A DNA stretch of 55,413 nt, taken from the IMG/VR virus record IMGVR_UViG_3300034027_000007, positions 1-55,413 of that record, one strand, 5' to 3'. Source of the DNA: a virus. Positions 1 through 55,413 of the stretch are shown in pieces. Under the pieces are notes generated by a model. The model had not been told where the DNA came from, did no database searches, and saw only the letters and a program-made list of their open reading frames with translations. The translations under genes were made by a program, and so were the position numbers. Position 1 is the stretch's first letter, and every line of letters starts with the position of its first letter.

Positions 1-37
1 CACAAAAAAACACCCCCCCATATCGCAAGGAGGGCGC
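1..37. repeat. Left terminal inverted repeat (putative hairpin telomere)
   Basis: The first 37 bases match the reverse complement of the last 37 bases at 35 of 37 positions; the mismatches are at positions 1 and 31. The arm holds an A7 tract, a C7 tract, then ATATCGCAAGG and a G-rich part, so it also contains an internal C-tract/G-tract dyad. Joined end to end the two arms form a long, nearly perfect palindrome, the expected form of a telomere resolvase target. The alternative is a pair of identical outward-facing rho-independent terminators (GC stem plus T7) at which an assembly broke. Confidence 0.75.
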
Positions 38-3591: not shown

Positions 3592-3625
3592 AAAACCCGC
3601 AGCATAGGTAAGTGCTGCGGGTTTT
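3592..3625. terminator. Bidirectional terminator
   Basis: A 13-bp perfect stem (AAAACCCGCAGCA / TGCTGCGGGTTTT) with an 8-nt loop lies between the convergent genes ending at 3572 (plus) and 3654 (minus). A and T tracts flank the stem on both strands. GATAAGG-type words (CCCTATCTTACCTTATCTT) follow at 3631-3649. Confidence 0.85.
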
Positions 3626-3653: not shown

Positions 3654-6600
3654 TTAGTAACCCTCTGGTAAAACCAACCCTCGATTATGCGTAGCAGCGC
3701 ACAAACCTCGATTATATTTCTCAAGCAATGGTGCATAAAAATTGATCCATTGGTTTGCCGTGTTGTTGTTGCACTTAGCGATCTTTGTGACGAGATTTTG
3801 CCCAATATACCACCGCTCTTTACCCGATTTTTTGGCATTAGCCTGCATAAAAGGCAGCATAGCCTCGCTGATTTTACGGAAGTTTGCCGGGGGCTTAGTC
3901 AAGCAACTATCAGGATCTGACAGCGGTCTTAAATCAACCTCACTCGATTTTTTGCTGACAATTTTTTGTACTTCTTGCTTAACCAATTCTGCGGGCGGTG
4001 CATTGTCTGGGGTGCGGTGATACAGTGGGATCTCGCGACTAGAAAGAGTAATTATTCTAGTCAGCCCTTTTAACATCTCGTGTTTGGGGGTTTTGTCCCA
4101 AACGTAAATATTTGTTGATGTTTTGTCTGTAGTCCATTCACCCGCATCATTTTTCCGGTAACAGAAGCGCGGCAAGTTCAGCATCATTGTGGGCGGGTTT
4201 TCTTGCAAGAACTTTAACCGATCTTGGCAAGCTTCAAACCAATCCAACCGCAGCACCATTACCAAACCTTTTAGGGCATGATCGAAAGCGTTTTTAATTA
4301 TAGGTGCGCTTAGTTTGCCATAAGGCGGGTTGCTAAAAATCCAGTCAGCTTTAGGCATTTTGTCCCAATTTTCGGCGACTGTAGCATCTAAGTGATTTTG
4401 CGCGGGTTTTTTAGGATCAATGTCGTTAGTCCAGACTTTAAACCCGGCCGCCTCCATTATGGAAGCGATCGCACGATTGCCGGAGCAAGGCTCGCCAATT
4501 GTGCCACTAAAAGGCACGTTAGCGAGTGCCAACAGCGTCATCCAGGCCGGAGTCTCATAAAAATCATACTTGTGCCTGCCGTTCTCATCTAACTCGATCT
4601 CGATAGCTTCTGGCGCTTCCTCTGTGGCTACTTCCTCAACAAGGGCGGCGGCGGGTGCTTCCTCAGCATCCGGCTCGACTTCCTCAAGGTCGATCTCGAT
4701 TGTCTCAACCTCGGCAGAGGCGGCGGGTGTTGCCTCTATCTCAACCTCAACAGGGGCGGCGGGTGTTGCCTCTATCTCAACCTCGGCAGGGGCGGCGGGT
4801 GTTGCCTCTATCTCAACCTCAACAGGGGCGGCGGCGGGTGTTACCTCAATCGGCTCGGTCACACCCTTGACGGTAGCGAGCAGATGTTCTGGCACTTCCC
4901 AGCCCCAAAGCTTCTGATATCCTCGGACTTTGACGGGTTCGATCGGTGTGACGTTTTCCAATAGCCAAGCATAGCGGCCAGCCTCCCAGATGCCGCAGCG
5001 CCGCTCTAAATCGGTTTGCTTGGCTATGTATTCCTCGGTCATCAGTACGCAGTCTACTAAATTGGCAACTGCGATTACATAACCGCGTTCTAAATCGCTG
5101 TGATGTCTGTCTACCAGCACGAGCAGATCGGGATTGATAGCCGTCTTTTTAACCGTTGACGCGATCGCAATCGGGCCCCGGTATTCACCGCCGCCAAACT
5201 TAGCCGGCCAGCCGCGAGTCTCAATTTTTTTGTTACCGTTGCGGACTAATTCGGCCCAGGGCTGATCGAGGCTCAAAGCTGGGATTTTAAGACTGACTTG
5301 TTGGACTGTTGCAGGAGCGGGTGCAATAACAGCGGGTGCAGCATTTACCACAACAGCGGGTGCAACAACGGCGGGTGCAGCATTTACCACAACAGCGGGT
5401 GCAACAACGGCGGGTGCAGCATTTACCACAACAGCAGGTGCAATAATTGCTTTGTCCTCTAAATCATCAATTTTCGCCCCTGGTTTTCTGACTACATAAT
5501 CGGCATAGTTTAACGTAGTCCTCAACGAGCTTAAATCGCCGTCAAAATGTCCTAAGATGCGCGATTTATATAACAGTTCGTTTGTGCCTTTTGGACAGTG
5601 TAAATCGGTCACGATAGCCGCCCAAGCGCCGCGCAAACTTTTACAGCTTGGGCTTTCTTCCCCTTGCCTAACAGGCAACCAAGAGAAATGTTTTGCCACC
5701 CCGATCCGGTTAACCTGTATCCGAATAGCATCTGAAAGTTTCTTGAGATCCGGATCGTCTGCGTCTATTTGTTGCGCTATTTTTTCCACTTCTGCGACCT
5801 TATCTCGAACTATCTTGCTATCTCTAATTAGATTAAGCCGTCTCAAGAAAAAATCAGAAGTTACACCCAGCAAGATAGTAGAGGTTGCCTGTATTTCTTT
5901 GTCGCGTTTTTTAACCCGCCCTTTAATTGTGAGCATTTTTGGCTCGCCTTCAATTGGGGTAAACTCTGCGGTGTAAATGATTTCAATTGGTCGGCATCCA
6001 GTCGCTGCGACAGCCCCTGCTATCATGCGGTAAACATCATCAGAAACTAAAGCAAACTTAATAGACTCTGTGAACTGTTCCGCGTGAAGGTCTAGCGCTT
6101 GGTTATCCAGTTTTGCAATTACCTTATCATCCGCGATTTTACGATCCTTGCTCCAATCGTAATCGAGGACGCCACAGTATTTAAAATGCAAGTGACGCAA
6201 TATTGTACTGCCGTCCGATTTCTGCCACATAACCGCATTTACACCCTCTACCAGCTTAGGCTTTAGCCTGTTAATTGCTGTGTTGTAGGCTGACAAACGT
6301 TGCATTTTTGTCTTGTCTGAGATCCTTTTAGGATCGAACCTGTCCATCGATAGAAGTTTATCGCACAATGCCTTAATGTCTTCCGGCGACTTAAGACTAA
6401 CCATCAATCGAGCGTACTCTCTCGCAGTCTTAAAGGTGTATTTATCATCTAGTTTGACTGTTTCCTCAGTTCGCTGCGGTAACAGCGCTTTAACGCGCTC
6501 TTGGCTCTGCATTTGGCGGACGATCGCGTATTGCTCAGGGGTGAAAATTTCTTTAATTTCAGCCCAAAAACCATCGCCAAAAGTTGTTTGATTGATTAAA

Positions 6601-7727
6601 GCCTGAATAAAGACTTTTTTAGACTTGTCTGAGCGCTGATCTTGCAGAACTTCCGCGAGCCGATAATCGCCTGATTTAGCTCGCCAGTACACCCGATCGC
6701 CGTTTTTGTACATGGGTGTTTTGATAGAGGTGTTAGGCGTCTCAATGGCAGTGCTAGCAGCCTCAGAAGCTTCGATCGGTTGCACCGCGTCCACATCGAG
6801 CGCAGATATCATATTAGGTTTGCTGGGGCTGTAGGCAAAAATCAACGTTTCGCCCGGTTTTTGGTCTTTATCGCACACCATAACCCGAACCGTACCGGGG
6901 CGGGGCGTCCAGTTAATCTTGTCACCAGCCTTGTAAAGTTTGATTGCTTCTGCGGGTGTTGCCACTACTTCAGCGGGTGCAGCGGCCGGCGCGGTTTCTG
7001 CGGGTGTTGCCACTACCTCAGCGGGTGCAGCGGTCGGCGCGGTTTCTGCGGGTGTTGCCACTACCTCAGCGGGTGCAGCGGCCGGCGCGGTTTCTGCGGG
7101 TGCTGCCACTACCTCAGCGGGTGCAGCGGCCGGCGCGGTTTCTGCGGGTGCAGCGACCAGCGGGGCTTGTTCGGGGGCGGTGACTGTTTCGGGTGCAGCG
7201 GCCGGTGTGGCTTCTGCGGGTGTAGCCGCCACGGCTTCAAAAGGAGCGCCGTACTTGTTGGTCGGATTGCCAAAGTGTTCCTGATACCAGCTATAGAGGG
7301 TTAACTCGCCTAAAGGGGCCCAAAAAGGTTTTTTCTTTTTCTCTGCAACCAGCAATTTTCTTGATGTTTCCGAATACTGATCTCGCTCGCAGTAGACAAT
7401 CAGAACATCGCCACCGCCGGCCGGAGTATAAACCAATTTGTCATTCTCCCGATACATCGGGGCTTTATAAACCTCTTTACCTTCTGCGAGATCGGGCTGT
7501 TTCGGCAATAGCTCTCTGTACTGGCTAGGGGTCATCAAGTCGCCAATATTTGCCCAAACCTTGCGGGTTCCGGTGCTGTCGGCGAGATTAACCCAAACTT
7601 TTTTAGACTTGCTGCTGGCTTGATCTTGGTCGCACTCAACCAAAATATAATTGCCGTCGCACTGATAGTATAAGTTGTCTCCCTTTTGGTGTAGCCGTTT
7701 GGTTCCTGTTTTGGTTGTGACTAACAT
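3654..7727 (-). CDS. Telomere resolvase (protelomerase)-ASCH-DNA methyltransferase fusion (1357 aa)
   Basis: Probable telomere resolvase that cuts the palindromic telomere and rejoins the strands as hairpins. Residues 1-400 hold four degenerate 50-70-residue repeats with the pattern Y-x2-GD-x-(V/I)-Y/N-W ... DQ-x4-K-K-V, split by an Ala-Pro linker. Residues about 430-750 form the catalytic domain: TGCRPIEI (R579), GRVKKR (K606/K607), SCKSLRGAW (R699), LGH (H727) and NYADY (Y741 or Y744), matching in order the R-K-R-H-Y set of TelN/TelK-type enzymes. The H-to-Y distance (14 or 17) is longer than in TelK or ResT. Residues about 810-945 are an ASCH domain (LSLDQPWAELVRNGNKKIET). Residues about 1050-1235 are an adenine-specific methyltransferase-like domain (motif I-like EPCSGNRA, motif IV SNPPYG at 1132-1137). 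An ordinary tyrosine recombinase is the main alternative for the core; the terminal repeats favour a resolvase. Confidence 0.8.
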   Translation of the reverse strand: MLVTTKTGTKRLHQKGDNLYYQCDGNYILVECDQDQASSKSKKVWVNLADSTGTRKVWANIGDLMTPSQYRELLPKQPDLAEGKEVYKAPMYRENDKLVYTPAGGGDVLIVYCERDQYSETSRKLLVAEKKKKPFWAPLGELTLYSWYQEHFGNPTNKYGAPFEAVAATPAEATPAAAPETVTAPEQAPLVAAPAETAPAAAPAEVVAAPAETAPAAAPAEVVATPAETAPTAAPAEVVATPAETAPAAAPAEVVATPAEAIKLYKAGDKINWTPRPGTVRVMVCDKDQKPGETLIFAYSPSKPNMISALDVDAVQPIEASEAASTAIETPNTSIKTPMYKNGDRVYWRAKSGDYRLAEVLQDQRSDKSKKVFIQALINQTTFGDGFWAEIKEIFTPEQYAIVRQMQSQERVKALLPQRTEETVKLDDKYTFKTAREYARLMVSLKSPEDIKALCDKLLSMDRFDPKRISDKTKMQRLSAYNTAINRLKPKLVEGVNAVMWQKSDGSTILRHLHFKYCGVLDYDWSKDRKIADDKVIAKLDNQALDLHAEQFTESIKFALVSDDVYRMIAGAVAATGCRPIEIIYTAEFTPIEGEPKMLTIKGRVKKRDKEIQATSTILLGVTSDFFLRRLNLIRDSKIVRDKVAEVEKIAQQIDADDPDLKKLSDAIRIQVNRIGVAKHFSWLPVRQGEESPSCKSLRGAWAAIVTDLHCPKGTNELLYKSRILGHFDGDLSSLRTTLNYADYVVRKPGAKIDDLEDKAIIAPAVVVNAAPAVVAPAVVVNAAPAVVAPAVVVNAAPAVIAPAPATVQQVSLKIPALSLDQPWAELVRNGNKKIETRGWPAKFGGGEYRGPIAIASTVKKTAINPDLLVLVDRHHSDLERGYVIAVANLVDCVLMTEEYIAKQTDLERRCGIWEAGRYAWLLENVTPIEPVKVRGYQKLWGWEVPEHLLATVKGVTEPIEVTPAAAPVEVEIEATPAAPAEVEIEATPAAPVEVEIEATPAASAEVETIEIDLEEVEPDAEEAPAAALVEEVATEEAPEAIEIELDENGRHKYDFYETPAWMTLLALANVPFSGTIGEPCSGNRAIASIMEAAGFKVWTNDIDPKKPAQNHLDATVAENWDKMPKADWIFSNPPYGKLSAPIIKNAFDHALKGLVMVLRLDWFEACQDRLKFLQENPPTMMLNLPRFCYRKNDAGEWTTDKTSTNIYVWDKTPKHEMLKGLTRIITLSSREIPLYHRTPDNAPPAELVKQEVQKIVSKKSSEVDLRPLSDPDSCLTKPPANFRKISEAMLPFMQANAKKSGKERWYIGQNLVTKIAKCNNNTANQWINFYAPLLEKYNRGLCAATHNRGLVLPEGY
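4698..4841 (-). repeat. 36-bp in-frame repeats (linker 3 of the resolvase fusion)
   Basis: Four copies of a 12-residue unit (TPAAPAEVEIEA-like) form an acidic Ala-Pro linker between the ASCH and methyltransferase domains. The DNA copies are nearly identical, which suggests recent slippage or expansion. Confidence 0.8.
5325..5441 (-). repeat. 39-bp in-frame repeats (linker 2 of the resolvase fusion)
   Basis: Three copies of a 13-residue unit (AVVVNAAPAVVAP) separate the catalytic domain from the ASCH domain. The unit differs in length and sequence from the other two linkers of the same protein. Confidence 0.8.
6954..7154 (-). repeat. 48-bp in-frame repeats (linker 1 of the resolvase fusion)
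   Basis: About four copies of a 16-residue unit (APAEVVATPAETAPAA) lie between the second and third N-terminal repeat domains. The opposite strand is open through this region only because of the repeat composition. Confidence 0.8.
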
Positions 7728-7746
7728 ATTTTCCTGTAAAAAATGA

Positions 7747-7771
7747 CCTTATCTTATTCTACAAGATAAGG
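7747..7771. promoter_or_regulatory. Inverted GATAAGG operator upstream of the resolvase gene
   Basis: CCTTATCTT (7747-7755) and AAGATAAGG (7763-7771) form a perfect 9-bp inverted repeat with a 7-nt spacer; a third direct copy, GGTAAGATAA, overlaps at 7770-7779. The site lies 20-50 nt before the resolvase ATG, so it is well placed for control of that gene. The half-site is the same word that occurs in the promoter family of this replicon. Confidence 0.65.
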
Positions 7772-7814
7772 TAAGATAATCCCGAACTTTTGGAAAATAT
7801 TTTTAAAAGATTTG

Positions 7815-13845: not shown

Positions 13846-16296
13846 CTACTTGCCGGAGGTTGCCGGAGTCTCGCCGGCCTTTGGTAAACGGAATGTTTTC
13901 CTACACTGGCGGTTGCCGCACTCATAGCGCGGCGTCCCGTCTTTGTAAGGCTTTAGGGGGTGTATTGTCGTGTACAAGCAATTCGGACAAGCCGCGAATT
14001 CATCCAAACCGCGATCGGCGTTTTCGCTTTCATTCTGGCGGTGCGGTGAGGTAACGCGGGCCCCTTCGGGAAACCGCAGCCCGTCCAGAGAAAAATCGCT
14101 GTAGGCAGGCTGCTGCACAAAGAAAGGCTCGAACGATGGCGCAACAACCAGGGCGATTCTATAAGCGTTTGGCGAGACTTTCTTAGAGTCGCCTATTTTT
14201 GGGCGAGCTGTAAGCCCTTCCTGCTCGTTTAAGAGGTCGCAGAGGCTGTTTAGTTGGTTTAGCTTATCCAGTAACTCAGCGCGGTTTGCAGCCGCTTTAT
14301 TGCTGTTTATATACGCTTTAGCTTGCTCTGAGGTCAGCACCATTGTGCAGTTGAGAAAGTCCTCTTTCATTAACCGGGTCGCGTTGCCCGTGTTTTTCTC
14401 GCCCTCTTCCGTCTTTTTCGTTCTTGCACCGCCGCTGAGGCCTGACACGTTCAACCCTTGCCCTGCCGATACAAACCCCATGTTTGTATGGTCAGACAAC
14501 TGATACATATCTTTGAAGAAGCGGCCGATCTCTTCGTAGTCCCGAGCGGTGGCATTATCTTCATCTAGGGCCATAACAAGATAATCTCTCTTGCTGGCTT
14601 CCTCTAAATTGTTCCTACGCCACTTAAACTCGCGGTGAAAGGCTTCTAACGCTTGCACGATGGTTTGTTCGGCGTTCATTCCCGGCTGTACAATGCCGGG
14701 GATTTTAAACCAGTCCTTAACCGATCCGGGGATAGGGTTAACGAGCCAAAGCACCCCTCTGTTTAGCTTGGCTAGCTCTACCGCGATCCGCTCTAGCAGC
14801 GGTGACTTACCGCCCGTGCTGCCTGCACAAACCCTCACTCGGTTGGTGAACTTAGTCCGCACCACTTCCCCAAACTGATCTGCCGGAAAACACCCCAATT
14901 CGATAAATTTATCGCGGTGTATGTCCGGCTCGTGTCTGGTTTGCGGCTCAAAGTCTAACCCTTTCTGTACTTTCGTTTTAGGCTTCTTGACCCGACTTAA
15001 ATCGGTTGTCAATAAGCCCCCAATAGTTGATAAATCGCTGTTGTCTCGTGTCCGGTTCATGTCCGCGTCATGTCCGGGACGTGTCTGGTTTACGGAAAAA
15101 ATCTCGACACTCACTAAAAAATCCTGCGGGTGCAACTTAAATTTTAATTCTCTGGTAGATAAACCCATTAACCCCCGCTGGTTTGTCACCTTGTTAAATT
15201 CTTCTGATGACAATTTAGTTTGGTCAGGGTTGCGATCGATCTTGAATTTAAGGCAATAGCCGCCTACTATTAAGTCAGTGCTGTGTGCATCAAATGTTAC
15301 ACCGTATTTATGGAAATGATCGATTATGGTATTGCCGATCTGATCTGGGTCAGTCAAACCCGAGAAACGGCGCGGCGCTTCATATTCGGCAATTTTCTGT
15401 TTTAAAATTGCGTTTTCTCCTGCTAGTTGGAGAAATTCAGAATCGCGGGCGCTCATCTCCTGTTTGTAAGCATTTTCTATTTGTGGCAGGGTGTTTTTTT
15501 CAATTGACTCCATTACATTTTGTTTGTCTCCTAAATCTTCCTGCAATATTGCAATAGCTTGTTTGAGCTTGGCAATCTCAGCGAGCTTGCTCTCAATAGC
15601 TTGACCTACTGCTTGCTGAGTGTAAGGGGCGATTTTGTTTCTAATTTCTAATTCCAACTTATAGTTAAAGTTAGTTTGTAGCTTGTCTAGCTCTAGGACT
15701 GTTTGTGCTAGCTCGCTGTCTAGATCGTCTTTTGCCGCTTCTAACTCTAGTACCTGTTCCTCTAAAGTCTTGTTGACTTCCTCCAATTCGGCAAGCTCGG
15801 CTAAGGTAGACTCTAAAGCCTGATTTTTTTCTGATAACTTTCTTTTTAGTGTCCCGATCAGTTCTTGCACTGGGGGCGAATCTAAAATTTTGGGGTTTTT
15901 TCCTGACTCCCAGTATCTAAGCCCTAATTCTAATTCCTCGCAGCGTCCCCTTAAATCGCTGACAGTCCGCTCTAATTCATCCCGATAGTGATTCCTCTCA
16001 GCGGTCATCTTCTCAAGCTCAGAGCGCAATTCTAGCTCTAAGATTGTTAATTTGCTCTTGGCATTCTCTAGCTCTAAAAGCAGTTCCTCTTGTTTCTCTT
16101 CCAACAGCCCTATAGCGTCCCGAGCGCCAAAGTTACAAGCGCTTGCACCCGCCAAAAATCCCGAAGTAAGGGCAAGACCGCTAGCAGCCAGCGGCGCTAA
16201 TCCCAAGCCGCCCAAAACAGCGACTACACCCAACCCGCCAAAGCTGACCGTGCCAAGCAGAGAAAACATTTTTGCTATCTCGTTTTTGGTACTCAT
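13846..16296 (-). CDS. Membrane-anchored coiled-coil P-loop ATPase with zinc ribbon (816 aa)
   Basis: Residues about 10-55 are hydrophobic and Gly-rich (two possible membrane segments). Residues about 60-305 are a long coiled coil rich in Leu, Glu and Lys. A linker follows, then a P-loop: CAGSTGGKSP (Walker A, K497) and YLVMALDED (Walker B, D578). Residues 770-798 are a four-Cys zinc ribbon (CPNC ... CGNRQC). I choose ATG 16296 because AGGAG lies 9-10 nt upstream; a start 11 codons upstream lacks one. The layout suggests a membrane-tethered motor acting on DNA, for example in segregation or transfer, but I know no exact family and the role is inferred. Three 11-bp repeat clusters lie inside or just upstream of it. 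Confidence 0.75.
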   Translation of the reverse strand: MSTKNEIAKMFSLLGTVSFGGLGVVAVLGGLGLAPLAASGLALTSGFLAGASACNFGARDAIGLLEEKQEELLLELENAKSKLTILELELRSELEKMTAERNHYRDELERTVSDLRGRCEELELGLRYWESGKNPKILDSPPVQELIGTLKRKLSEKNQALESTLAELAELEEVNKTLEEQVLELEAAKDDLDSELAQTVLELDKLQTNFNYKLELEIRNKIAPYTQQAVGQAIESKLAEIAKLKQAIAILQEDLGDKQNVMESIEKNTLPQIENAYKQEMSARDSEFLQLAGENAILKQKIAEYEAPRRFSGLTDPDQIGNTIIDHFHKYGVTFDAHSTDLIVGGYCLKFKIDRNPDQTKLSSEEFNKVTNQRGLMGLSTRELKFKLHPQDFLVSVEIFSVNQTRPGHDADMNRTRDNSDLSTIGGLLTTDLSRVKKPKTKVQKGLDFEPQTRHEPDIHRDKFIELGCFPADQFGEVVRTKFTNRVRVCAGSTGGKSPLLERIAVELAKLNRGVLWLVNPIPGSVKDWFKIPGIVQPGMNAEQTIVQALEAFHREFKWRRNNLEEASKRDYLVMALDEDNATARDYEEIGRFFKDMYQLSDHTNMGFVSAGQGLNVSGLSGGARTKKTEEGEKNTGNATRLMKEDFLNCTMVLTSEQAKAYINSNKAAANRAELLDKLNQLNSLCDLLNEQEGLTARPKIGDSKKVSPNAYRIALVVAPSFEPFFVQQPAYSDFSLDGLRFPEGARVTSPHRQNESENADRGLDEFAACPNCLYTTIHPLKPYKDGTPRYECGNRQCRKTFRLPKAGETPATSGK
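14921..14942. repeat. 11-bp repeat cluster 3 (coding)
   Basis: Two units, ATGTCCGGCTC and GTGTCTGGTTT, lie inside the ATPase gene. Confidence 0.55.
15048..15091. repeat. 11-bp repeat cluster 4 (coding)
   Basis: Four consecutive 11-bp units: GTGTCCGGTTC, ATGTCCGCGTC, ATGTCCGGGAC and GTGTCTGGTTT. They lie inside the ATPase gene although 11 bp is not a codon multiple, which argues for selection at the DNA level. Confidence 0.75.
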
Positions 16297-16327
16297 AAAA
16301 AATAACTCCTGTGTTTGTGTCTCGATC

Positions 16328-16349
16328 ATGTCCGGGTCATGTCCGGGAC
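16328..16349. repeat. 11-bp repeat cluster 5 (intergenic)
   Basis: ATGTCCGGGTC and ATGTCCGGGAC stand in tandem, followed by ATGAC. They lie 32 nt upstream of the ATPase start. Confidence 0.7.
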
Positions 16350-27112: not shown

Positions 27113-27595
27113 ATGGCAAAAATAACAGCCGTCTCCTTTGGGCAAATGCCGCCCGATTTTATAGCCGAAGGCATAGGCTCTGGTACAGATTGCTTACTTC
27201 CCGGTGGCGTTCCGATCGATGTTGCAACAGTGCCAACTGTATCCGGCCCCAACGGCATCGCAATTAAAACTTTAGCAGCCGGATCGATTGTCAACAGAAT
27301 TGCGTCAGTCCGACAAAATTATGGGCCTTTTAAAGTTTGGCCCCCTGCATCGGGTACACCAGAAGCGCTGATCGATTTTTATTTGGTTGCTTTTACAGTG
27401 ACGGATATTGAGGGCCTCAGCTTAACCCCTCAAACGTTGTTAAGTAGTGGCGATCCGGGTTGCAACGTACTTCGCCCCGGTACATTGATCTATGAGGATA
27501 GGCTACCCCCCTATTTTGCTTTGTTGGCTGAAACCGACAAGGAAAAAATTAGAGACAAATATCCTATGCTCTTAGCTCGGAGGGTTGTACTATGA
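27113..27595 (+). CDS. Putative head decoration protein (160 aa)
   Basis: A beta-rich protein of about 160 residues directly before the capsid gene, where gpD-like decoration proteins are usually encoded. GTLIYEDRLPPYFALL and IKTLAAGSIVNRIASV are consistent with a beta-tulip-like fold but not diagnostic. The stop overlaps the capsid start by 4 nt. Confidence 0.5.
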   Translation: MAKITAVSFGQMPPDFIAEGIGSGTDCLLPGGVPIDVATVPTVSGPNGIAIKTLAAGSIVNRIASVRQNYGPFKVWPPASGTPEALIDFYLVAFTVTDIEGLSLTPQTLLSSGDPGCNVLRPGTLIYEDRLPPYFALLAETDKEKIRDKYPMLLARRVVL

Positions 27596-28788
27596 ATGTA
27601 ACAACGATCCGAGAGCTAGTTACCTGGATGGATACTTCCGGGCAATTTGAGGCGCTTTCTTCCTCGAATATGAGCCAATTTGGGACACCTCAAGAACCAA
27701 TGCTCGGAGCTACAATTTTGCCCGAAAGGCAAGATTTAGAAAACGCTTACAACTCAGTTTCACTGGCAATTAATAACGAGATCGGTAACAGTGGAGCCGA
27801 TTACAGTCCTGCTCAAAAAAACAAGGCACTAGGCGATTATAGCTTCCTAGTTAAACTAGGAAAATTGGACGCTGCAAGCGACTTGAACGGCCCCGAATTA
27901 GAGCGCATCATCCACTATTTAGAGCGGCGCTTGCCAACCCGAGATCCGCTCCTGTCAGCTTCTGAAATCTTGGCTCGATGGTTCGATCGCGGCGTTTTGC
28001 ACTCTCTGGCACAAGTCATGGAGCAGCAGCGCTGGCAGGCTATTGTTGACGGGCAAGTGAAGCGGCGCGGCTCAAATGGCTATGCTGAGAACGTTGACTA
28101 TCCATACGGAACATCGCACCAAATAACCACGGTTCCGAGCGGTACGCTCGCAGCCCCTGCGGGTTGGTACGATCAGAATATGGCCACGGCGTACAACCCC
28201 ATGCTCGACCTACTGGCTATCAAGCAGCGGTTTGCCGATCGCGGTTTCAAGTTGCGCCGGATAATCAGCAAGAGTGCAATCAGGACGGTATTTTTTAACA
28301 ACGGCAAAACCAGACAAAACGCTCTGCCGCTGAACATTTTGCCGCTAACTACCAGTCAAGTCCCCAGCGAGCGCGATATACAAGCGATGCTCGATCGGTA
28401 CGAGCTACCGCCGTGGGAAGTCTACAATTCGGGGTTTAAATACCGCGATCCGAACAATGCCGATCAGCTAAAATTCTCAGCTTATCTCGACCGTCAAGGG
28501 TTCGATCCTATTATTTTTCTGGCTACAACAACGCTAGAGCAACAAATCGAATTAGGGCGAGATCAGGGGATTATGTACCTGCCTAGCACCCTAGGTAATT
28601 TTGTCTTGGGTCGCAACTTGGGACAAATGCGGTTAGGTAAGGTTCCCAAATTGATTGTGCGCGATGAAAAATACCCATACTCAATATATGGGGAAATAGT
28701 CGCCACAGGCTTGCCAGTAATTGAAGCGGAAGTGCTAGCAATGGGCAATCCGATAGCTATCTTAAAAGTACCCAAACCCACGCCATAA
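27592..28788 (+). CDS. Major capsid protein, lambda gpE family-like (398 aa)
   Basis: The layout fits capsid protein E: N-terminal arm, GATILPERQDLE, a helical region, WQAIVDGQVKRRGSNGY, IISKSAIRTVFFN, then the C-terminal beta part with a late GEIVATGLPVIEAE. Length (398) is slightly above lambda gpE (341). Neighbours (decoration, scaffold, connectors) support it. The ATG overlaps the upstream stop (ATGA). Confidence 0.75.
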   Translation: MNVTTIRELVTWMDTSGQFEALSSSNMSQFGTPQEPMLGATILPERQDLENAYNSVSLAINNEIGNSGADYSPAQKNKALGDYSFLVKLGKLDAASDLNGPELERIIHYLERRLPTRDPLLSASEILARWFDRGVLHSLAQVMEQQRWQAIVDGQVKRRGSNGYAENVDYPYGTSHQITTVPSGTLAAPAGWYDQNMATAYNPMLDLLAIKQRFADRGFKLRRIISKSAIRTVFFNNGKTRQNALPLNILPLTTSQVPSERDIQAMLDRYELPPWEVYNSGFKYRDPNNADQLKFSAYLDRQGFDPIIFLATTTLEQQIELGRDQGIMYLPSTLGNFVLGRNLGQMRLGKVPKLIVRDEKYPYSIYGEIVATGLPVIEAEVLAMGNPIAILKVPKPTP

Positions 28789-31173: not shown

Positions 31174-32541
31174 ATGACAATAGCCACAGGTTTAGCTTAT
31201 GAAGAAGGGCGCAGAATTAATATTAGTGACAGCAATGCTGTTATAGCAATTGTCGGCACGGCTGCCGAAGGGTTCAACCTTAATAAGCCAACACTAATAA
31301 AAACTTCAACGCAAGCTATTACCCAATTTGGAATGCCAACACCGGGTGCAACAATTCCCGAAGCTTTAGCCTGTGCTTACGAAAAATACGGGCAAATAAG
31401 CTTTATAGTTGTTAACGTAGCAGCGGCGGCGGTTGCTGCTGTTGCGCCTAATTTACGCAGTTTTGACGCTCAGGACAGAATACAATTACCCCATGCCTCA
31501 ATAACTGGATTAGTGGTCAAAAACGCGAGTGGTACTACCACTTATGTAGCCGGAACTGATTACACCGTAAATAATTTTACGGGAATAATTACCAGAAAAG
31601 GGACGGCAATTCCCAGGACGGATCAGGTTTTAGTTAACTACAATAGACCAGATTTTGTGGCTGTAACCGCCCCTAACATTGTTGGAGGGGTAAACGCAAC
31701 GACCGGAAAGCGAGAGGGTTTAGAAGCGCTTATCGAGGCTGAATTTCTTGATATTACTAATACTAATATCAGCATAATCATTACCCCTGGATACTCGCAA
31801 TTGCCAACAGTAGCCGACAAATTAAAAGAAATTGGCGCTAAATTGCGGGCTGTTTACTGCTTGGACGCACCAGCAAGTGCAACAATAGACGAAGTTTTGG
31901 CGGGTCGGAATTCTGCCGCCGCTCCCGTCGCACATTTTGCAACAAGAGACACGCGGGCAATATTGTGTTACCCAAACCCGATTACAGAGAAAGGCGAGCA
32001 ATGGTTTTCGATTCACGTAGCTTGTGCAATGGCAATTGCACCAGAATGGAAAGCGCCAACAAATAACCCATTGAGGGGGGTTATAGGTTGGAAAACGCCG
32101 CTACTAACCTCGCCAAGCGATGAAAACGCGGATAACAGCCGTTTAAATAAAGCTGGCATTGTTACTCACCTCAATCGGAACGGTTTAGACATTGTTATCT
32201 GGGGTCACTTTAACGGCTCTTATCCCGAGGTTGCTGTTGAGAAATACGGACTCGATCGAATTCACATTATCCGAATAATTGACTCGGTATACAACCAACT
32301 AAATCAAGAATTGAGCCGATTTAACGGTCAAAGGTTGGGTGTAAATTGGGATGGAGCGAGTGCAACGATCGAGGCAAGCGTATCTCAAAAACTCAGAAAC
32401 AATCAAAACATAGACGGCGCAAATATTACTTGGCTACGAGAAGATTCTGATTTAACTAAGCGGTTGCTTGCTTTTAAATTAGAGATTAGAGTACCTGATG
32501 CGCTCGATATCATTGTGACTGTTTTAGAGTTTGTAATTTAA
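31174..32541 (+). CDS. Tail sheath protein (455 aa)
   Basis: Contractile sheath subunit of the P2 FI type. Features: NAVIAIVGTA near the N-terminus, a surface domain in the middle, IIITPGYSQLPTVADKLKEI, SIHVACAMAIAPEWKAP, NPLRGVIGWKTPL, and a late helix-strand with SVSQKLRNNQNIDGA. Length is within the usual range. It is followed by the tube gene in the conserved order. Confidence 0.9.
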   Translation: MTIATGLAYEEGRRINISDSNAVIAIVGTAAEGFNLNKPTLIKTSTQAITQFGMPTPGATIPEALACAYEKYGQISFIVVNVAAAAVAAVAPNLRSFDAQDRIQLPHASITGLVVKNASGTTTYVAGTDYTVNNFTGIITRKGTAIPRTDQVLVNYNRPDFVAVTAPNIVGGVNATTGKREGLEALIEAEFLDITNTNISIIITPGYSQLPTVADKLKEIGAKLRAVYCLDAPASATIDEVLAGRNSAAAPVAHFATRDTRAILCYPNPITEKGEQWFSIHVACAMAIAPEWKAPTNNPLRGVIGWKTPLLTSPSDENADNSRLNKAGIVTHLNRNGLDIVIWGHFNGSYPEVAVEKYGLDRIHIIRIIDSVYNQLNQELSRFNGQRLGVNWDGASATIEASVSQKLRNNQNIDGANITWLREDSDLTKRLLAFKLEIRVPDALDIIVTVLEFVI

Positions 32542-34005: not shown

Positions 34006-37000
34006 ATGGCCGAATCGCGAGTAAAGATTTTTATAACTGCTATTGATGAAGCGAGCCAAACGTTTTCTAACGTTATGGACAGTAGTGAATCAATGGCAGC
34101 TAGACTCTCGCGGACGGGCGATACTCTGGGCGAATTGGGACAGCTTGCCTCGGACTTCACAGAACCTCTGGCTAAGGGTTTAAAAGCCAGTAAGAACGCC
34201 GCGATCGAATTCGAGTCAGGAATGGCCGAAGTGCGGAAAACGACCGGGTTAGGCGCGGTACAAACTGCCGAGCTAGGTAACGAGATTAAAAAACTCTCTC
34301 GAACAATTCCCCTCACCACACAGGAATTAACCGAGATAGGCGTTGCTGCGGGACAAAGCGGCATCGCAATGAACGATATACCAGCCTATATTAAAGACAT
34401 TTCAAAAGCATCCGTTGCACTCGCAGTTGATACAGATAAAGCGGGTTTGGCGTTTGGTAGATTAGCCAACGTTTACGGAATGTCTACTAAAGAAATACCC
34501 AAACTAGCCGCAGCAATTAATGTTTTAGGTGATAGTTCTGTAGCCTCCGAGGCTGAGATTTTAAACGTAATTATGCGGACTGCTGCACTCAGTCGGCAAG
34601 CTAATTTAACAGCTAAAGACAGCGCGGCTCTAGGCGCTTCTTTTGTTAGTTTGGGTATGGCGCCAAATGTTGCAGCCACTGCTATCAATGCACTTTTGAG
34701 TCGCATGACTACCGCAGAAATACAATCGGCTCGCTTCCAAAAGGGGTTAGCAATGATTGGTATGAGCGGGCAAGAATTGCAAAACATGACCTCGAAAAAC
34801 GGGGTACAGGCAATTTTTGCTTTAGGTCAAGCTGTTGATAAATTAGATCCGCAAGCTAGAGCGCAAGCAATCGGGTTGATGTTTGGCGCTGAACATTCCG
34901 ATAATGTTGGGGTATTTCTTGACAGAATGGAAGTTTTTAACAGCGCTTTGGGTAGCGTTGCAAACGACCAGCAAAATGTCAATCGATACAATGAGGTGTT
35001 TGCTACACAGCTAGACACAACCGAATCAAAAATGCAGTTGTTAACTAATTCTTTTCACGAATTAGCAATTGAAATAGGAACGGCTTTACTACCAGGAATT
35101 AAAGCCTTTGCTGCGTTTTTGACCCCAATTATCAACAAAACAACAGAATTCGCCGCCAAACACCCCAACATAGTCAGGCTTGGCTCGGCACTGGCAGGCT
35201 TAGCTATCTCGATCGGGCCCCTCCTGCTCGGACTGTCAGCACTGGCTAAAGCTTGGGGCTTCTTTAGTGCCGGGATACCCATCGTTGCCGCGCTCAGCAA
35301 CCAATTCTTAGGTATTGGCAACCCTATCTCAAAATTCTTGAACTGGCTAGCTAAGGGCAACCAGCGGCTGTTAGGAATGGGAGACGCGGCGCAAGGTATC
35401 AAGCCGCCAGAGGTCGGAGAGCTACCAACCGTTAAGAAGTGTTTGCCTATATGTATATGCCCTGAAATTTGCACCGGATTTGAAACTAAGTTAAAAAGTT
35501 TAGTTGAAAAACTAGATATTTGTATTCCTGTCTGCATTTGTCCAGAAGATGTAAACAAGGGCAAAATAAAAAAACCGACCGAAAAATTAGATACAGAAAC
35601 ACCAACACCAACACCAACACCAGAAAAACCAGTACAAACACAAATTCCGGTTAATGTAGAAACACCAAAACCGGAAGAAAAACCCGCAGAAAAACAGAAT
35701 TTAAGTTTGCCCCAAATTGCGATGCTAGTTGCAGCCCTGGGGGCTGCTGTCGTTGCTGTTCAAAAATTAACTGATAGTAACGCAAGTTTGGGCGAAAAAG
35801 TAGTTAGTGCCGCCACTGCAATCGGTGCGGGCATAGCAGCAAAAAACGTTTTAAATCAGGAGAAAACTGAGCAGCAAAACGCCGCAGAAGTGGCAGCAAT
35901 TCAACAGCAAGCAGCCCAACAGTTAGGCGCGGCGCAAATAGCCAACGCGCAAGAATTAGCCAACGTACAGCGCACAAATCAAGCCGCTGAAATTGCAACA
36001 GCCGACAAAATAGCGGCGGGTAAACTGTTAGCACAACAGGCATCAAATCAACTCGCCAACCAACAGTTAGCGGCGCAACTAGCAGCTCAAAGAGCGGGTG
36101 CGGCAGTCGAGACAGAGAAAACGCGGGCGGTCACGGCGCAACAAGTAGCGGCAACAGCAGCCCAAGCTCAAATCATGCTCGCGGCGCGATCGCAGATGGC
36201 AGCAACTGATATTGCAGCCGCACAAGCGATCGGCGCTCAACAAGTGGCTACAGCCCAACAGGTAGGCGCTCAACAAGCAGCAGCCGCGCAACAAGTCGCA
36301 GCGCAACAAGTGGCTACAGCCCAACAAGTCGCAGGGATTCAGGCAGAAGCCGCACAAAAGGCAGCAGCCGCCGCAGAAGCTAAGGCGAAAGCTGAGGCTG
36401 AGGCAGCAGCCGCCGCACCGCCGCCGCCCCCTCCTGCTAGCTCTGGCGGCGGTGGGATGCTCAAAAATGCTCTGATGCTGGGGGCGGGTGCTTTAGGGTT
36501 GGGCGGTGTTGCCTTTGCTGTGTCTAAAGTTGCGGGCGGGTTGGGCGGCGCTGTTGGTGGCTTGTTCAACGCAACCAAAACAGTAGCCGGGGCGGTCGGT
36601 AAAGTTGCGGGCGGCGTCGGTAAGGTTGGCGGGGCTGTTGGTGGGTTTGTTGAAAAAGGCAATCAAATCTCGCGGGGCGTTGGCGGTGTCGCGGGCGGCG
36701 CGATCGGTACGGGTATCCGTACTTTTCAAGCTGGCAACACTGCGGCACAAGGTATCGGTCAAATTGCGGGTACTGGCATCGGGGGAGCGATTAAGTCGAT
36801 CGGCGCTGTAAACGGTATTGCTAAAGATGCCGGGGCTTCTATCGGGCAAGCGCTCGGCAGTGCCATCAAAGGTACTCAATCCCTAAGCGCGGCGGCTAAC
36901 TCGGCAGGCAGCGGTATCGCCGGGGCTTTCAGCAAGGCCGGCAACACCATCGCGGGTTCTGTGGCTCGCGTCGGTACTGTTACCAACAGCGCCGCCGCAA

Positions 37001-37914
37001 ATATGGGGGGCGCTTGGTCTAAAGTCCAGAAAGCCGCCGGAGTAACTAAAAATGCTTTAACAAATTTTGGAACACCTGCCGCCAGTGCCAAAACAGGCAT
37101 TGTATCCACAATCGGAAAAACGGCAGACGGCGCAATCAGGCAAGCGCAAGGGCTGATCGGCAATATGTTTAGCGGCGCTTCAAAGCTGGCATCATCCCCC
37201 GCTAGCAAATTGATCGGCCCTGTGGCTGCTAGTGTCGCCGGGACGGTGGGTGCGGCATCGTTGGCAGGGAATCAATCAGAAGTAACCGCGCCGCCGCCTA
37301 CACCCGCACAAGAGCCGCTTATTGTGCCGCCTACACCCGCAGCAGCAGATTTAAGCCCAACAAACACCATCAGCAAGTTTACCCGCCGCGCCGCCCCCAC
37401 TACTCCGAGCGCTGACTTGGCCGCCACTGCGAGCGCGGTAGAAAAGAATAATATTGTGCCGCTGGTAAGGTCTAGCAACAGCAGCGGGCGAGCTATCTCG
37501 TCAGGATTGGCACAGGGCATAAATGAAAGCCGGCCACAGGCAGAGCTAGCAGCGGCGGGTCTAGCTCAGACGATAAGCGACTATTTACCCAGATCGCCCG
37601 CAGAACGGGGGCCGCTTGCCGATTTGGATCAAACGGGTTTTGGCTTGACTCAAGAATTTCTCAAAGGTATTGACGGCGGGGCGATACAGAGCAAGTTTGA
37701 GGAAGTGTTGAACCCGCCGTCAAAGTTTGAAGGGTTAAGCGTTGACAACAGCAGCGGGGGCGGTAACAATACCGTTACCAATACTTTTGCTCCCCAGTAC
37801 ACAATCTCGACAGGGGACGGTAAAGATTTAATAGCAGAGCTAGAAAAACGCGATCGTCAGTTCTTTGATTTTTTCAAACGCACTCAAGAGCAATTTAGCC
37901 GGGGTCAGTTCTAG
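34006..37914 (+). CDS. Tape measure protein (1302 aa)
   Basis: Sets tail length. Residues about 60-350 match the TP901/Mu-type tape measure core (KLSRTIPLTTQELTEIGVAA, LAFGRLANVYGMSTKEIP, ALGASFVSLGMAPNVAATA). A hydrophobic segment lies at about 385-425. Residues about 478-520 form a Cys-rich insert with two copies of C-x-P-x-C-x-C-P-E. A Thr-Pro hinge follows. Residues 625-805 are an Ala/Gln coiled repeat (QQVATAQQVGAQQ-like). Residues 820-1200 are Gly/Ala-rich and weakly hydrophobic. The end is IAELEKRDRQFFDFFKRTQEQ. The Cys-rich insert is not usual. Confidence 0.9.
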   Translation: MAESRVKIFITAIDEASQTFSNVMDSSESMAARLSRTGDTLGELGQLASDFTEPLAKGLKASKNAAIEFESGMAEVRKTTGLGAVQTAELGNEIKKLSRTIPLTTQELTEIGVAAGQSGIAMNDIPAYIKDISKASVALAVDTDKAGLAFGRLANVYGMSTKEIPKLAAAINVLGDSSVASEAEILNVIMRTAALSRQANLTAKDSAALGASFVSLGMAPNVAATAINALLSRMTTAEIQSARFQKGLAMIGMSGQELQNMTSKNGVQAIFALGQAVDKLDPQARAQAIGLMFGAEHSDNVGVFLDRMEVFNSALGSVANDQQNVNRYNEVFATQLDTTESKMQLLTNSFHELAIEIGTALLPGIKAFAAFLTPIINKTTEFAAKHPNIVRLGSALAGLAISIGPLLLGLSALAKAWGFFSAGIPIVAALSNQFLGIGNPISKFLNWLAKGNQRLLGMGDAAQGIKPPEVGELPTVKKCLPICICPEICTGFETKLKSLVEKLDICIPVCICPEDVNKGKIKKPTEKLDTETPTPTPTPEKPVQTQIPVNVETPKPEEKPAEKQNLSLPQIAMLVAALGAAVVAVQKLTDSNASLGEKVVSAATAIGAGIAAKNVLNQEKTEQQNAAEVAAIQQQAAQQLGAAQIANAQELANVQRTNQAAEIATADKIAAGKLLAQQASNQLANQQLAAQLAAQRAGAAVETEKTRAVTAQQVAATAAQAQIMLAARSQMAATDIAAAQAIGAQQVATAQQVGAQQAAAAQQVAAQQVATAQQVAGIQAEAAQKAAAAAEAKAKAEAEAAAAAPPPPPPASSGGGGMLKNALMLGAGALGLGGVAFAVSKVAGGLGGAVGGLFNATKTVAGAVGKVAGGVGKVGGAVGGFVEKGNQISRGVGGVAGGAIGTGIRTFQAGNTAAQGIGQIAGTGIGGAIKSIGAVNGIAKDAGASIGQALGSAIKGTQSLSAAANSAGSGIAGAFSKAGNTIAGSVARVGTVTNSAAANMGGAWSKVQKAAGVTKNALTNFGTPAASAKTGIVSTIGKTADGAIRQAQGLIGNMFSGASKLASSPASKLIGPVAASVAGTVGAASLAGNQSEVTAPPPTPAQEPLIVPPTPAAADLSPTNTISKFTRRAAPTTPSADLAATASAVEKNNIVPLVRSSNSSGRAISSGLAQGINESRPQAELAAAGLAQTISDYLPRSPAERGPLADLDQTGFGLTQEFLKGIDGGAIQSKFEEVLNPPSKFEGLSVDNSSGGGNNTVTNTFAPQYTISTGDGKDLIAELEKRDRQFFDFFKRTQEQFSRGQF

Positions 37915-44796: not shown

Positions 44797-46254
44797 TCAA
44801 ATAGGTATCAGGGAGCCGCCGCGACTGTCTGGCGGTCTATCATCAGACTGATTGCCCGTTTCAATCGGTGCATCGCTGAGTTTATTTGTGGGTTGCGGTG
44901 TTTCTGGCGATTTGTTCGCGGTTCCTGTGGAGTTGGCGGGTTGTGCCAGCACGGCGGCTTCACTTGCCTCTAACTTCAATTCCTCAAGCTCTCGCTCGAT
45001 ATCTGCTGTAAAACCCAATTGCTCAATAGCCGTGCGGCGAGATACCAAACCGCGATCGCGAGCCTCTAACACTAATTTTTTGTGTTCATCGCCCTGATAG
45101 ATGCGCGGTAAAATCTTTACAACTACTTTTTGTTTTACGCCTAAAAAATAGTTAGCAACAGTCAATAAATCGCTAATATAGTAACTAAATTTGCGCGAAT
45201 CGCTCCTAACTAAATTAGCAAAATCAAAGCGGCTTTGCTCTCTACTGATGCCGCTTAAAACTAAATTAGACCCTAGTATAAAAGTCTGGCTTGTTTGTTC
45301 GTATATAGACAAGCTAAAACCGCTAACAGTGTTTAAAAAGGTTTCTGGATCGCTTGGTTCTTCGATCTTTACTTCTGGTTTGGTGTAGTTTGTTATCTGC
45401 TGTTTTTCGTCTTTAAGCGGTAAGCCCTGGATGAACTGCACCACACCCGCCCCTGTTGGTAGTCCTTCCGGTCTAGGCGTAAATTTTGCCCTACCTCGGC
45501 TATCATAAGCCCATTCGCCGGGAGGTTGCGCGTTGAGGACAGATTTTTGCACCCACCCACCTTTTAACAGGTTATTTACTAACAGCGTAAGCGCTGAGTT
45601 GATTGCGTTCTGGTTTTCTTTCAGTGACTCGGTTACAAGTTGCGGCAAGTTGACCTCAACTATAGTGAAACCGCCGCCTAGATCGAGTTTTAACTGTTCC
45701 GTTACGCGCTCGCCGTCTACTGTTTCAATAACTGTTAAACCGTTCTGTAAATACTGTCTTTCGATTAACGATCTGCCGTCCTGATAATAAGCGTAATCAA
45801 ACCTATATAAAGTGTTGTCATTATTCCGATATGCTCGAACACTATGCTTGGGCGGACAGTGTACCTCTAAGGCTTCTTTTTTTGTTTCGGATGTATAAGT
45901 TTTCTGGAAATATAGCCGCAAGTAGGCCCGCCCCTCAACTTTCGCTTTGGTAGCCGCTTCCTCGAACGGGTGGCCGAACAGTCCCGAGTTTTCCCTCTCC
46001 CACTTCTGTAACAAGTCTTTCAAAAGCGGATCGACTTCGGATAAGTGGGAGGCTGAGAGCGCCGAGACGTGCCTGTTGACTACTTCCTTAATTTTGTTGC
46101 AGCTTTGAAAGTTCCGGGCGATGATCCGGGACGTGATGATATTGCTTTCTTGAGTCAAATCGAGAATGGTGCTTAGCCATTCTGTAACGAACACCTCGCC
46201 CGTGTACCAACCCCAAGCCGGGGCTTCCAGAAAATCAGGATAATTTCGATACAT
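44797..46254 (-). CDS. Portal protein (SPP1 gp6-like, 485 aa)
   Basis: Dodecameric DNA entry channel. FGHPFEEAATKAKVEGRAYLRL, LLVNNLLKGGWVQKSV, SGFSLSIYEQTSQTFIL and the C-terminal RDRGLVSRRTAIEQLGF match the portal outline. The Ser/Pro/Thr-rich last 50 residues are probably disordered. It is on the minus strand and separated from the terminase by the replication gene, which is unusual. Confidence 0.8.
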   Translation of the reverse strand: MYRNYPDFLEAPAWGWYTGEVFVTEWLSTILDLTQESNIITSRIIARNFQSCNKIKEVVNRHVSALSASHLSEVDPLLKDLLQKWERENSGLFGHPFEEAATKAKVEGRAYLRLYFQKTYTSETKKEALEVHCPPKHSVRAYRNNDNTLYRFDYAYYQDGRSLIERQYLQNGLTVIETVDGERVTEQLKLDLGGGFTIVEVNLPQLVTESLKENQNAINSALTLLVNNLLKGGWVQKSVLNAQPPGEWAYDSRGRAKFTPRPEGLPTGAGVVQFIQGLPLKDEKQQITNYTKPEVKIEEPSDPETFLNTVSGFSLSIYEQTSQTFILGSNLVLSGISREQSRFDFANLVRSDSRKFSYYISDLLTVANYFLGVKQKVVVKILPRIYQGDEHKKLVLEARDRGLVSRRTAIEQLGFTADIERELEELKLEASEAAVLAQPANSTGTANKSPETPQPTNKLSDAPIETGNQSDDRPPDSRGGSLIPI

Positions 46255-46529: not shown

Positions 46530-49500
46530 ATGAGCAAATATAAATTAGCCAGCAAAAAAAATCTCTGCCCTGTGTGCGGGGCCCATAAAGATTGTAAAGA
46601 ATTACTTGGCGGCACTCAAATACTCTGGCTGTGCAAAAAACAGGGATCGTTAAACAAAGGTGAGAAAATACCCGGCACAGATCACAATATTTGGATTTGT
46701 TTAAAACCTGCTGAGGCCGCGATCTGGGCAACGATGGCGATCGCTGACGATCAGGAGATAACCCCAGAGGAACGAGCCAAGCGTAAAGCCGATTTGGACG
46801 CTCGCCAGCAAGAGGAAAAACGCAAGCGACAAGAAGCGCTCGCGATGGAGATGCCGGCCGGCGAGAGGGACGAACACTACAGAAAGATTTTTAGCCGCCT
46901 AGTCTTGACGAGCGGCGACTGTCAAAACTTGCTCGATCGGGGCTTTACTGAGGAACTATTGAGGCTGACAGGTTTTATATCTGTTGATAAGTCTCAAGTG
47001 ATTAGCGGCCTCTATCCTGACAATTTACCGGGATGCGTAGCGAGCGGCGGCAACAGTTGGCTGCAAGTTTCGGGGCCGGGTATCCTTTGCCCGTTTCCTG
47101 ATGAGCAAGGGCGGATCGTCGGTGCTCAGTTGCGGCTCAGGACTACTGGCGAGGATGAATCCCGTTATCGCTGGTTTGGTTGGAACAATGCAAGCAACTT
47201 GAACGGTGAGAAGCCGATCGCTTGTTGGGATTTTTCGCAGTCCGAGCAGCAGGATCGGATCTGGTTGGCTGAGGGTACGGGAATTAAACCCGCACTGGCT
47301 AGCTACCGATTGCGAGCACCTGTCGCGGGGGCGGCGGGGGGACTGTTTTCGAGCAGCCCCCAAAACACTCTGAGAACTCTAGAGCATCTGGCCGCTAAGT
47401 ACGGCACAAGGATGCTGGTAATGGCAGTTGACGCGGGGGACGTTGTTAATAAAGACGTGATCAAGCGGTTGCAGCGTCAGCGTAAATTCTTGCAAGATAA
47501 CGGGTATAACGTGACCTTTGCTTGGTGGGGTCAAGTTACAAAAGAGCATGATGATATTGACGAGCTAGCCGATCTAAGTGCAATCGCATACCTCGCCCCA
47601 AATCAATTCGATGCGATCGTTGCAGAAGCCAACGCACCGATAACCGATGAAGTGCGATCGCGATCGCAGTTAGTAGTGCAACCGCCGCGCCGCGATCGCA
47701 GGGAAGAAGCGCAACAGCAAGCGAAAGAAGTGAAAGAAGCGCGATCGGTGGTGCGGTTACAGCCTCCTGAGATTGAGCGTCCGAAAGGGTGGAAATCTTG
47801 GCAGAACTGCCGGAAGTTTACGCCGGACATTATACAAAGCAGTGAATTTGTAAAGTTTGACGCGCCAGAACCCGGCACAATTCTGGCTGTTAATGCTGGT
47901 TTGGGGACGGGTAAAACTAAAAATTTGGAGGATTTATTTGCACCCGGCGGTGCGTATGAAGGCAAGGGCGCGTTTGGTTTCTTTGCACGTAACAGCTTGA
48001 TCTATAATTTTATAGGCAGAATTCCATCATTCACGCATTTGAATGAGGAATTACTCATAATGCTGAGAGATCCGGGATCTCGTTTTGCATTGTGTACAAA
48101 CAGTTTAAAGAAAATTACAAACCCAGAATGGTTTGAAGGTAAGATTCTAATTATTGACGAATTCCCAGCAGTATCGCTGCACCTTGCTTGCAGTGCAACA
48201 CACCGGAAAGATCGCATACAATCTTTAGAAATATTTAAACAGGCATTTACGCTTTGCGAGTCGGTAATTATATTAGGCGGCGACCTTACCGACTGGCAGG
48301 TAGAATGGGCGGGCAAACAAGCGCCAAATAAGAAAATAGTCAAGCTTAAAAACAACGGCAAAAGACCGAGGGCAAAAGTCGAAATTTTGTTAGGAACTCC
48401 CACAAAATCGGGAAGCTTTGACAGTGCCAAATTATCGCCTTTTATTGCGCCTATTGTTAGTGCAAATCAGCCTATTACTATTTTCACTGACAGCCAAAAA
48501 CTAGGCGAGCAAATTGAATTACTATTAATTGACGCTGGTAAAAAAGGTTTAAGAATAGACTCTAAAACGGTTTATCCTAAAAGCGAGGCGAGACTCTGCC
48601 TTGATAATTGCAAGAAGTGGATTGAGGCAAATTTGCCCGATTATCTTCTCTGCTCGCCTACTTCCGAAAGCGGTGTTGATATGAATTTACCGGGCTATTT
48701 CTCTGATAGTTACGGCTTGTTTAGAGGAATTCTGGCAACCGATCAGCAGATGCAAATGATGGCGCGCAACCGCGATCCTAATTGCAACTGGCACATAAGT
48801 GTGCCTAAGCAGAGTTTTTTAAGGGGAAGCGACAAAGATTACAATTTAGACAATATCAACGCAGCAGCTAACAAATTGTTGGAGTTAGCTGAGATGGACA
48901 TCTCGCATTTACGCCTAAATAAGGACTGGTTAGGCGAGACTTTCTTACAGTACATTGAGGAAGCTCACAACGATGTCAATAACTTATTTGCTTTGAAATA
49001 CAGGGCAAAAGAAGCATTCGAGAAAGAGAATTTAAGAGAGTGCTTAATATTTGCTTTAGAGGAAGCCGGCCACGAGATAAACCAGACAGCTTATTTTGAA
49101 AATGCCAAAACGGAAGCGGAACTAAAAGCCGCTGGGGAAATGGTGAAAGACGCAACTGCCGCTCAAATCTTCCATGCGGAAGATATAACCGAGAAACAGG
49201 CAGAGGACTTAAATGCTAAGTGGGCATCGACTTGGGAAGATAGGGTGAAACTGATTAAGGCAGGCTATAAGAAGCTATTGCCGGGTATAGACGAGACAGA
49301 GTTTTGGAATAAAGAATTTATCAAGTTTCTGAAGTACGATCACCCTAAAGCGATAGCCGGGGCTGAGTTGCTGTACCTGTTCAAGAATCCCGATTTGGCA
49401 AATAAGAAGCAACACAATTTTTGGGCGAAAATAGCCACTGAGCGAGCGATTTTCTTGCCTGATATCACATCGTCTCACCTCAAGGTTAAAGCCCTGCAAT

Positions 49501-55376: not shown

Positions 55377-55413
55377 GCGCCCCCCTTGCGATATGGGGGG
55401 GTGTTTTTTTGTA
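55377..55413. repeat. Right terminal inverted repeat (putative hairpin telomere)
   Basis: Reverse complement of 1-37 with 35 of 37 matches. It reads CGCCCCCC-TTGCGATAT-GGGGGGG then TGTTTTTTTGTA, so on its own it also resembles a rho-independent terminator of the endolysin-like gene. Confidence 0.75.

Follow-up and report, generated by a model that had tools for sequence, protein, structure and literature searches.

Telomere resolvases have been described as stand-alone proteins: TelA (Agrobacterium), TelK (phiKO2), TelN (N15), and ResT (Borrelia) share a catalytic fold and a site composed of Arg, Lys, Arg, His, and Tyr, and all are without a methyltransferase or ASCH domain. Telomere phages of the N15/VP882/HY01 type combine a protelomerase with phage structural genes and plasmid replication, and their hosts are proteobacteria. 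VP882 carries a separate methyltransferase gene, and in the Vibrio telomere phage HY01 a separate methyltransferase gene lies adjacent to an ASCH gene (PMC7919010). In cyanobacteria, only hairpin-ended linear plasmids have so far been reported; for those of Nostoc N6, closure into hairpins was deduced from sequencing reads, and the plasmids are suspected to be phage remnants (PMC5987646).

Here we describe a gene on virus record IMGVR_UViG_3300034027_000007, the whole 55,413 nucleotides of which are referred to as the window. A single open reading frame (ORF) encodes a 1357-residue protein consisting of four N-terminal repeats, a telomere resolvase core, an ASCH domain, a methyltransferase domain, and the C-terminal domain of a resolvase (Table 1). 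Comparative analyses suggest that this is the resolvase of a linear phage-plasmid, which would make hairpin ends and carry an N6-adenine-type methyltransferase to phage DNA; we give this reading a probability of about 0.6.

The resolvase core

A sequence-only reading of this DNA had proposed that the core is a telomere resolvase, a view that a better match to ordinary phage integrases would have overturned; family and structure comparisons agree on a resolvase. Pfam family PF16684 (ResT-TelK_cat) matches residues 549-744 with E=8e-17 and passes its curated cut-off; a Pfam scan of the fused protein returned no integrase family at E<=10. When a profile of 47 cyanobacterial relatives, the window core included, was compared with PDB, it matched TelK (2e-19), TelA (7e-17), and ResT (2e-9), and no recombinase. 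Similarly, in a Foldseek search with an AlphaFold model of the core (predicted local distance difference test, pLDDT, 83), the top structures were TelA, TelK, and ResT, with TelA first (template modelling score, TM, 0.64; E=4e-9), ahead of Cre (E=5e-3). An ordinary tyrosine integrase would belong to the same superfamily, and Cre is a weak structural match; however, Pfam, the PDB profile, and the fold all favour resolvases, and the record has inverted ends, so that the chance of an integrase is next to negligible.

The active site of TelA comprises R255, K286, Y363, R366, H394, and Y405 (PMC3558466), and all six aligned positions are filled in the window protein. The equivalents of R255, K286, R366, H394, and Y405 are R579, K606, R699, H727, and Y741, whereas the Tyr363 position is occupied by a lysine, K696, which resembles the Lys of topoisomerases IB. 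These positions are conserved between the window core and its relatives. In a resolvase phylogeny, the window protein lies on a very long branch and its placement is unsure. Overall, homology, fold, active site, and replicon ends support resolution well, and the fused protein is very likely to carry out this reaction.

Insertion of ASCH and methyltransferase modules within the resolvase

The last ~70 residues, beyond the methyltransferase, resemble the C-terminal domain that is found in stand-alone resolvases of cyanobacterial plasmids. All eight ORFs returned by a phmmer search with this tail alone encode resolvases or a fragment of one, and the similarity (best E=3e-5) centres on an ERWYIG motif. 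With a homolog profile (hmmsearch), the real tail scored E=5.6e-4 and the best of 2000 shuffled tails 0.18, and hhalign of the tail against the resolvase C-terminal domain gave P=4e-6. Where the relatives have a coiled coil, between the catalytic and C-terminal domains, the window protein has ASCH and methyltransferase. Judged by these alignments, both modules interrupt a single resolvase. This speaks against an erroneous merger of genes, from which a different domain order would be expected. The C-terminal domain had been absent from the sequence-only reading.

That reading had named a sequencing error merging separate genes as another outcome that would speak against it, and an assembly chimera would have the same effect. 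The fusion occurs in one record only, and tandem repeats such as those of the linkers are difficult for short reads, for which reason the unit counts given here may be wrong. However, there are no frameshifts across the 4 kb of the gene; its codon usage and GC content at third codon positions are uniform and similar to those of the record's other genes, the repeat linkers excepted; no other gene in the first 13 kb of the window shares the linker repeats above about 60% identity; and resolvase sequence resumes after the methyltransferase. Such an artefact is therefore very improbable, and the joining of resolvase, ASCH, and methyltransferase in one protein is borne out by the ORF and the family matches. 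The start ATG is preceded by a ribosome-binding site, AGGA, 5 nt upstream, and no promoter-like site was found on the minus strand within the gene.

The ASCH domain matches phrog_3193 at residues 810-949 (E=5.6e-30) and scores 18.1 bits with Pfam ASCH, which is under the cut-off; stand-alone homologs on cyanobacterial plasmids are 37-43% identical. The methyltransferase domain matches phrog_799 ('DNA methyltransferase') at residues 1049-1229 (E=6.9e-27), and its motifs SNPPY and GEPCSGNRA (motif I) are kept in homologs. Stand-alone cyanobacterial plasmid methyltransferases (e.g. of Nostoc HK-01) are related to it (36-45% identity) but unfused. From the NPPY motif and a weak similarity to Dam (E=0.045), we infer a methyltransferase of N6-adenine type. 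PADLOC assigned no defence family.

It is conceivable that the methyltransferase merely hitch-hikes, such that resolution is real but ASCH and methyltransferase act independently and genome-wide against restriction, sharing a polypeptide for co-expression. Stand-alone homologs of both modules are common on cyanobacterial plasmids, the corresponding genes of VP882 and HY01 are separate, and the long flexible linkers would fit such an arrangement. Against this, the insertion is internal to the resolvase and not terminal, and every methyltransferase copy is thereby bound to telomere-binding domains. We consider a hitch-hiking enzyme unlikely, though well short of negligible.

At the N-terminus, where four small beta domains had been proposed, four mutually similar repeats were found; five of the six repeat pairs beat all 300 shuffles, and the pair of repeats 1 and 3 is marginal. 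The AlphaFold model of repeat 4 (pLDDT 87) has PWWP/Tudor domains as its top Foldseek matches, which are weak (E 0.01-0.05, TM about 0.55-0.6), and the four repeats may tentatively be viewed as SH3/Tudor/PWWP-like barrels. A profile of the repeats had no match elsewhere among the sequences searched (hmmsearch), and comparison of the repeats with plasmids and phages gave no significant match. The three distinct repeat linkers of the sequence-only reading are present, with units of 48, 39, and 36 nt, but it had them joining resolvase, ASCH, and methyltransferase; the 48-nt linker instead parts repeats 2 and 3, and the other two flank ASCH.

These modules could also serve regulation: the ASCH or Tudor-like domains may sense whether the telomere is fully or half methylated after replication, and this state would then time or license resolution. 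Domains of the PUA/ASCH superfamily bind modified bases (PMC7641849), four Tudor/PWWP-like repeats are predicted, and the modules are fused to the resolving enzyme itself. However, the reader role of these domains is only putative, the A/C-rich telomere tip has no evident methylation palindrome, and cyanobacterial relatives resolve without such modules. Therefore, regulatory coupling of this kind appears distinctly improbable.

Replicon ends

The window has 37-nt terminal inverted repeats, which the sequence-only reading had overlooked. Read on the opposite strand, the right end nearly reproduces the left half, CACAAAAAAACACCCCCCCATATCGCAAGGAGGGCGC, whereas elsewhere in the 55,413-bp record the first 40 nt are matched at 22/40 positions at best. 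Inverted ends of this kind would be expected of a contig that spans two hairpin telomeres, or of one at which the assembler halted at the telomere palindrome. Because the terminal repeats are near-identical, the record is probably a complete linear replicon, though classed plain 'linear', and its ends are probably hairpins, which would suit a covalently closed linear prophage. An internal telomere palindrome was also sought, for which the best candidates were terminators or a 63-nt imperfect palindrome in a coding region (3152-3214); the idea was dropped in favour of the terminal inverted repeats.

Comparable ends are found in relatives. AP018305 has inverted ends of 1.49 kb and pNPM10 of about 1 kb, perfect or near-perfect. 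Seven resolvase-bearing contigs or plasmids (L012, L015, L018, L020, L024, L036, and L061) were assembled through the telomere and hold a palindrome centred on the junction of GTTAATTT and AAATTAAC, and an eighth (L052) holds a variant, GGTAATCT joined to AGATTACC. This palindrome corresponds to the published AAATTAACRGAC ends of the Nostoc N6 linear plasmids, which encode homologs of the window resolvase. Some plasmids with an exposed telomere palindrome have been deposited as circular.

Comparison with other resolvases

The closest relatives are the stand-alone cyanobacterial 'protelomerase family proteins' (e.g. on Nostoc N6 pNPM8/9/10 and Fischerella AP018305), the cores of which are 28-35% identical to that of the window protein in the closer group. 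They have in common with the window the active-site positions, the C-terminal domain, inverted ends, and, on several plasmids, a CyRepA1-like replication protein (Rep). In contrast, they have a coiled coil instead of ASCH and methyltransferase and are without N-terminal repeats. Among 59 distinct cyanobacterial resolvase ORFs and others from 100 genomes of one order, the longest has 776 residues, and none bears ASCH, a methyltransferase, or the window layout. TelA, TelK, TelN, and ResT are remote in sequence from the window protein. Viral contigs yielded no relative in searches that used the fused protein in full or its N-terminal part, the resolvase alignment, Rep, terminase, and the telomere sequence, and neither a fused telomere resolvase nor a cyanobacterial telomere phage was found in a full-text literature search of partial coverage. 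Provisionally, the window protein is the one telomere resolvase with an internal enzyme domain among some 60 relatives and the literature covered.

Proposed function

CyRepA1-type replication would leave copies joined via a palindrome in which two telomere halves meet. The protein, as a dimer, would then cut both strands with Tyr741 and refold them into hairpins in the manner of TelK and TelA, a step suggested by family, fold, and active site. TelN has similar affinity for substrate and product and shields hairpins from SbcCD (PMC12624138); because TelN-like resolvases remain on the resolved telomere, the methyltransferase would most likely be brought to phage DNA, chiefly near its ends. ASCH would act as a nucleic-acid-binding domain beside the methyltransferase, between the catalytic and C-terminal domains, and the flexible Pro/Ala linkers would allow the methyltransferase to reach nearby DNA. 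The simplest benefit would be that methylation marks phage DNA as self with respect to host restriction. The toolkit of Vibrio telomere phages (methyltransferase and ASCH) may thus have been joined into one protein in the window phage. The presence of these modules in the middle of the resolvase suggests that end sealing and DNA marking are physically linked. The sequence itself shows a single gene, a resolvase with intact catalytic residues, the inserted modules, the inverted ends, and the phage and plasmid genes, whereas hairpin formation, methylation activity and its target, and tethering are predictions.

Several observations weigh against a resolvase that delivers a methyltransferase to phage DNA. 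End protection by TelN needs none of its C-terminal domains (PMC12624138), and stand-alone methyltransferase homologs exist, so the methyltransferase need not be tied to telomeres. No second fusion was found among about 60 resolvase relatives or in viral contigs. With regard to the ends, their tip bases are not the same (C and T), which leaves the exact palindrome centre unfixed; additionally, the AAATTAACRGAC motif of Nostoc telomeres is absent from the window tip and occurs in the window no more than by chance. Hairpin telomere sequences differ strongly among systems, as noted in work on TelA (PMC3558466).

The sequence-only reading had suggested that the protein may mark or protect the telomere during resolution, or couple resolution to DNA modification; a functional coupling of methylation to the telomere is plausible, if doubtful. 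A self-contained end complex, which would make the hairpin, stay on it, and both methylate and read nearby DNA via its ASCH and Tudor-like domains, is quite unlikely; if true, the virus genome would have a telomere that bears an epigenetic mark and either governs resolution or guards the ends. The locus makes testable a coupling between telomere making and DNA modification, and also whether the small linear cyanobacterial plasmids with a resolvase and a related terminase descend from such phages or travel with them.

Phage and plasmid genes of the record

The record encodes a CyRepA1-family replication protein, relatives of which are located on linear resolvase plasmids, as well as terminase, portal, head, sheath, tape measure, and baseplate proteins (Table 1). 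Because these occur together with the resolvase, the record is best read as a previously undescribed N15-like telomere phage (phage-plasmid) of a cyanobacterium, and looks complete; we infer the cyanobacterial host from the relatives of its genes. It differs from N15/VP882/HY01-type phages in its replication protein, and from the cyanobacterial resolvase plasmids, which are small and without phage structural genes. The ~22-kb linear plasmids AP018305 (L002), AP018215 (L012), and pNPM9 (L084) each encode a resolvase together with a relative of the window terminase; this terminase is intact in AP018305 and AP018215 and in pieces in pNPM9. A CyRepA1-like Rep is present on AP018305 and AP018215, and no portal match was found on any of the three. 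These plasmids are possibly satellites or remnants of telomere phages. The Anabaena incision element has a terminase-like gene, and no terminal hairpins have been reported for it (PMC4148955).

Table 1. Positions of features in the window, with residue numbers of the 1357-residue protein
Feature	Position	Strand	Remarks
Left telomere half (putative)	1..37	+	35/37 identical to reverse complement of right end
Right telomere half (putative), inverted copy	55377..55413	-	
Whole fused gene	3654..7727	-	1357 aa, single ORF
N-terminal repeat 1	7488..7703	-	residues 9-80
N-terminal repeat 2	7254..7475	-	residues 85-158
Linker 1, Pro/Ala-rich	6942..7247	-	residues 161-262; 48-nt tandem repeat 6948-7150
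N-terminal repeat 3, shorter	6762..6953	-	residues 259-322
N-terminal repeat 4	6504..6725	-	residues 335-408; small SH3-like barrel and C-terminal helix in model
Resolvase core-binding and catalytic region	5490..6452	-	residues 426-746; R579, K606, K696, R699, H727, Y741
Linker 2	5304..5462	-	residues 756-808; 39-nt tandem repeat 5316-5443
ASCH domain	4878..5303	-	residues 809-950; GxKxxExR motif
Linker 3, acidic Pro/Ala	4593..4877	-	residues 951-1045; 36-nt tandem repeat 4703-4834
S-adenosylmethionine-dependent DNA methyltransferase domain	3963..4592	-	residues 1046-1255; NPPY motif
Resolvase C-terminal domain	3657..3887	-	residues 1281-1357
Terminator-like perfect inverted repeat	3592..3625		3' of fused gene
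Operator-like inverted ACCTTATCTT / AAGATAAGGT sites	7746..7778		directly upstream of fused gene
CCNTATCTTA copies	1535, 2275, 3631, 3641, 7747, 11118, 26185, 38349, 42536, 52910, 53673		
827-aa protein	13846..16329	-	homologs near resolvase gene in cyanobacterial genomes
Major head protein	27592..28788	+	phrog_29 E=6.6e-10
Contractile tail sheath	31174..32541	+	Pfam under cut-off; tblastn to sheath proteins E=3e-25
Tape measure protein	34006..37914	+	phrog_28 E=2.8e-59
Portal protein	44797..46254	-	PHROG E=9e-6; Pfam under cut-off
CyRepA1-family plasmid replication protein	46530..50150	+	NCBIfam NF042913 E=2.4e-87, above cut-off
Terminase large subunit	50412..51860	+	Pfam; 36% to Nodularia phages; 34-36% to TerL of three resolvase plasmids

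In many cyanobacterial contigs, homologs of the 827-aa protein lie <=10 kb from the resolvase gene, and this protein likely belongs to the linear-plasmid backbone. An HD-domain phosphohydrolase gene (7815-8381) adjoins the window resolvase gene on its upstream side. The sequence CCNTATCTTA has 11 copies in the record, compared with 0.38 expected; many of these are intergenic, including copies on both flanks of the resolvase gene, and it looks like the operator of a phage repressor.

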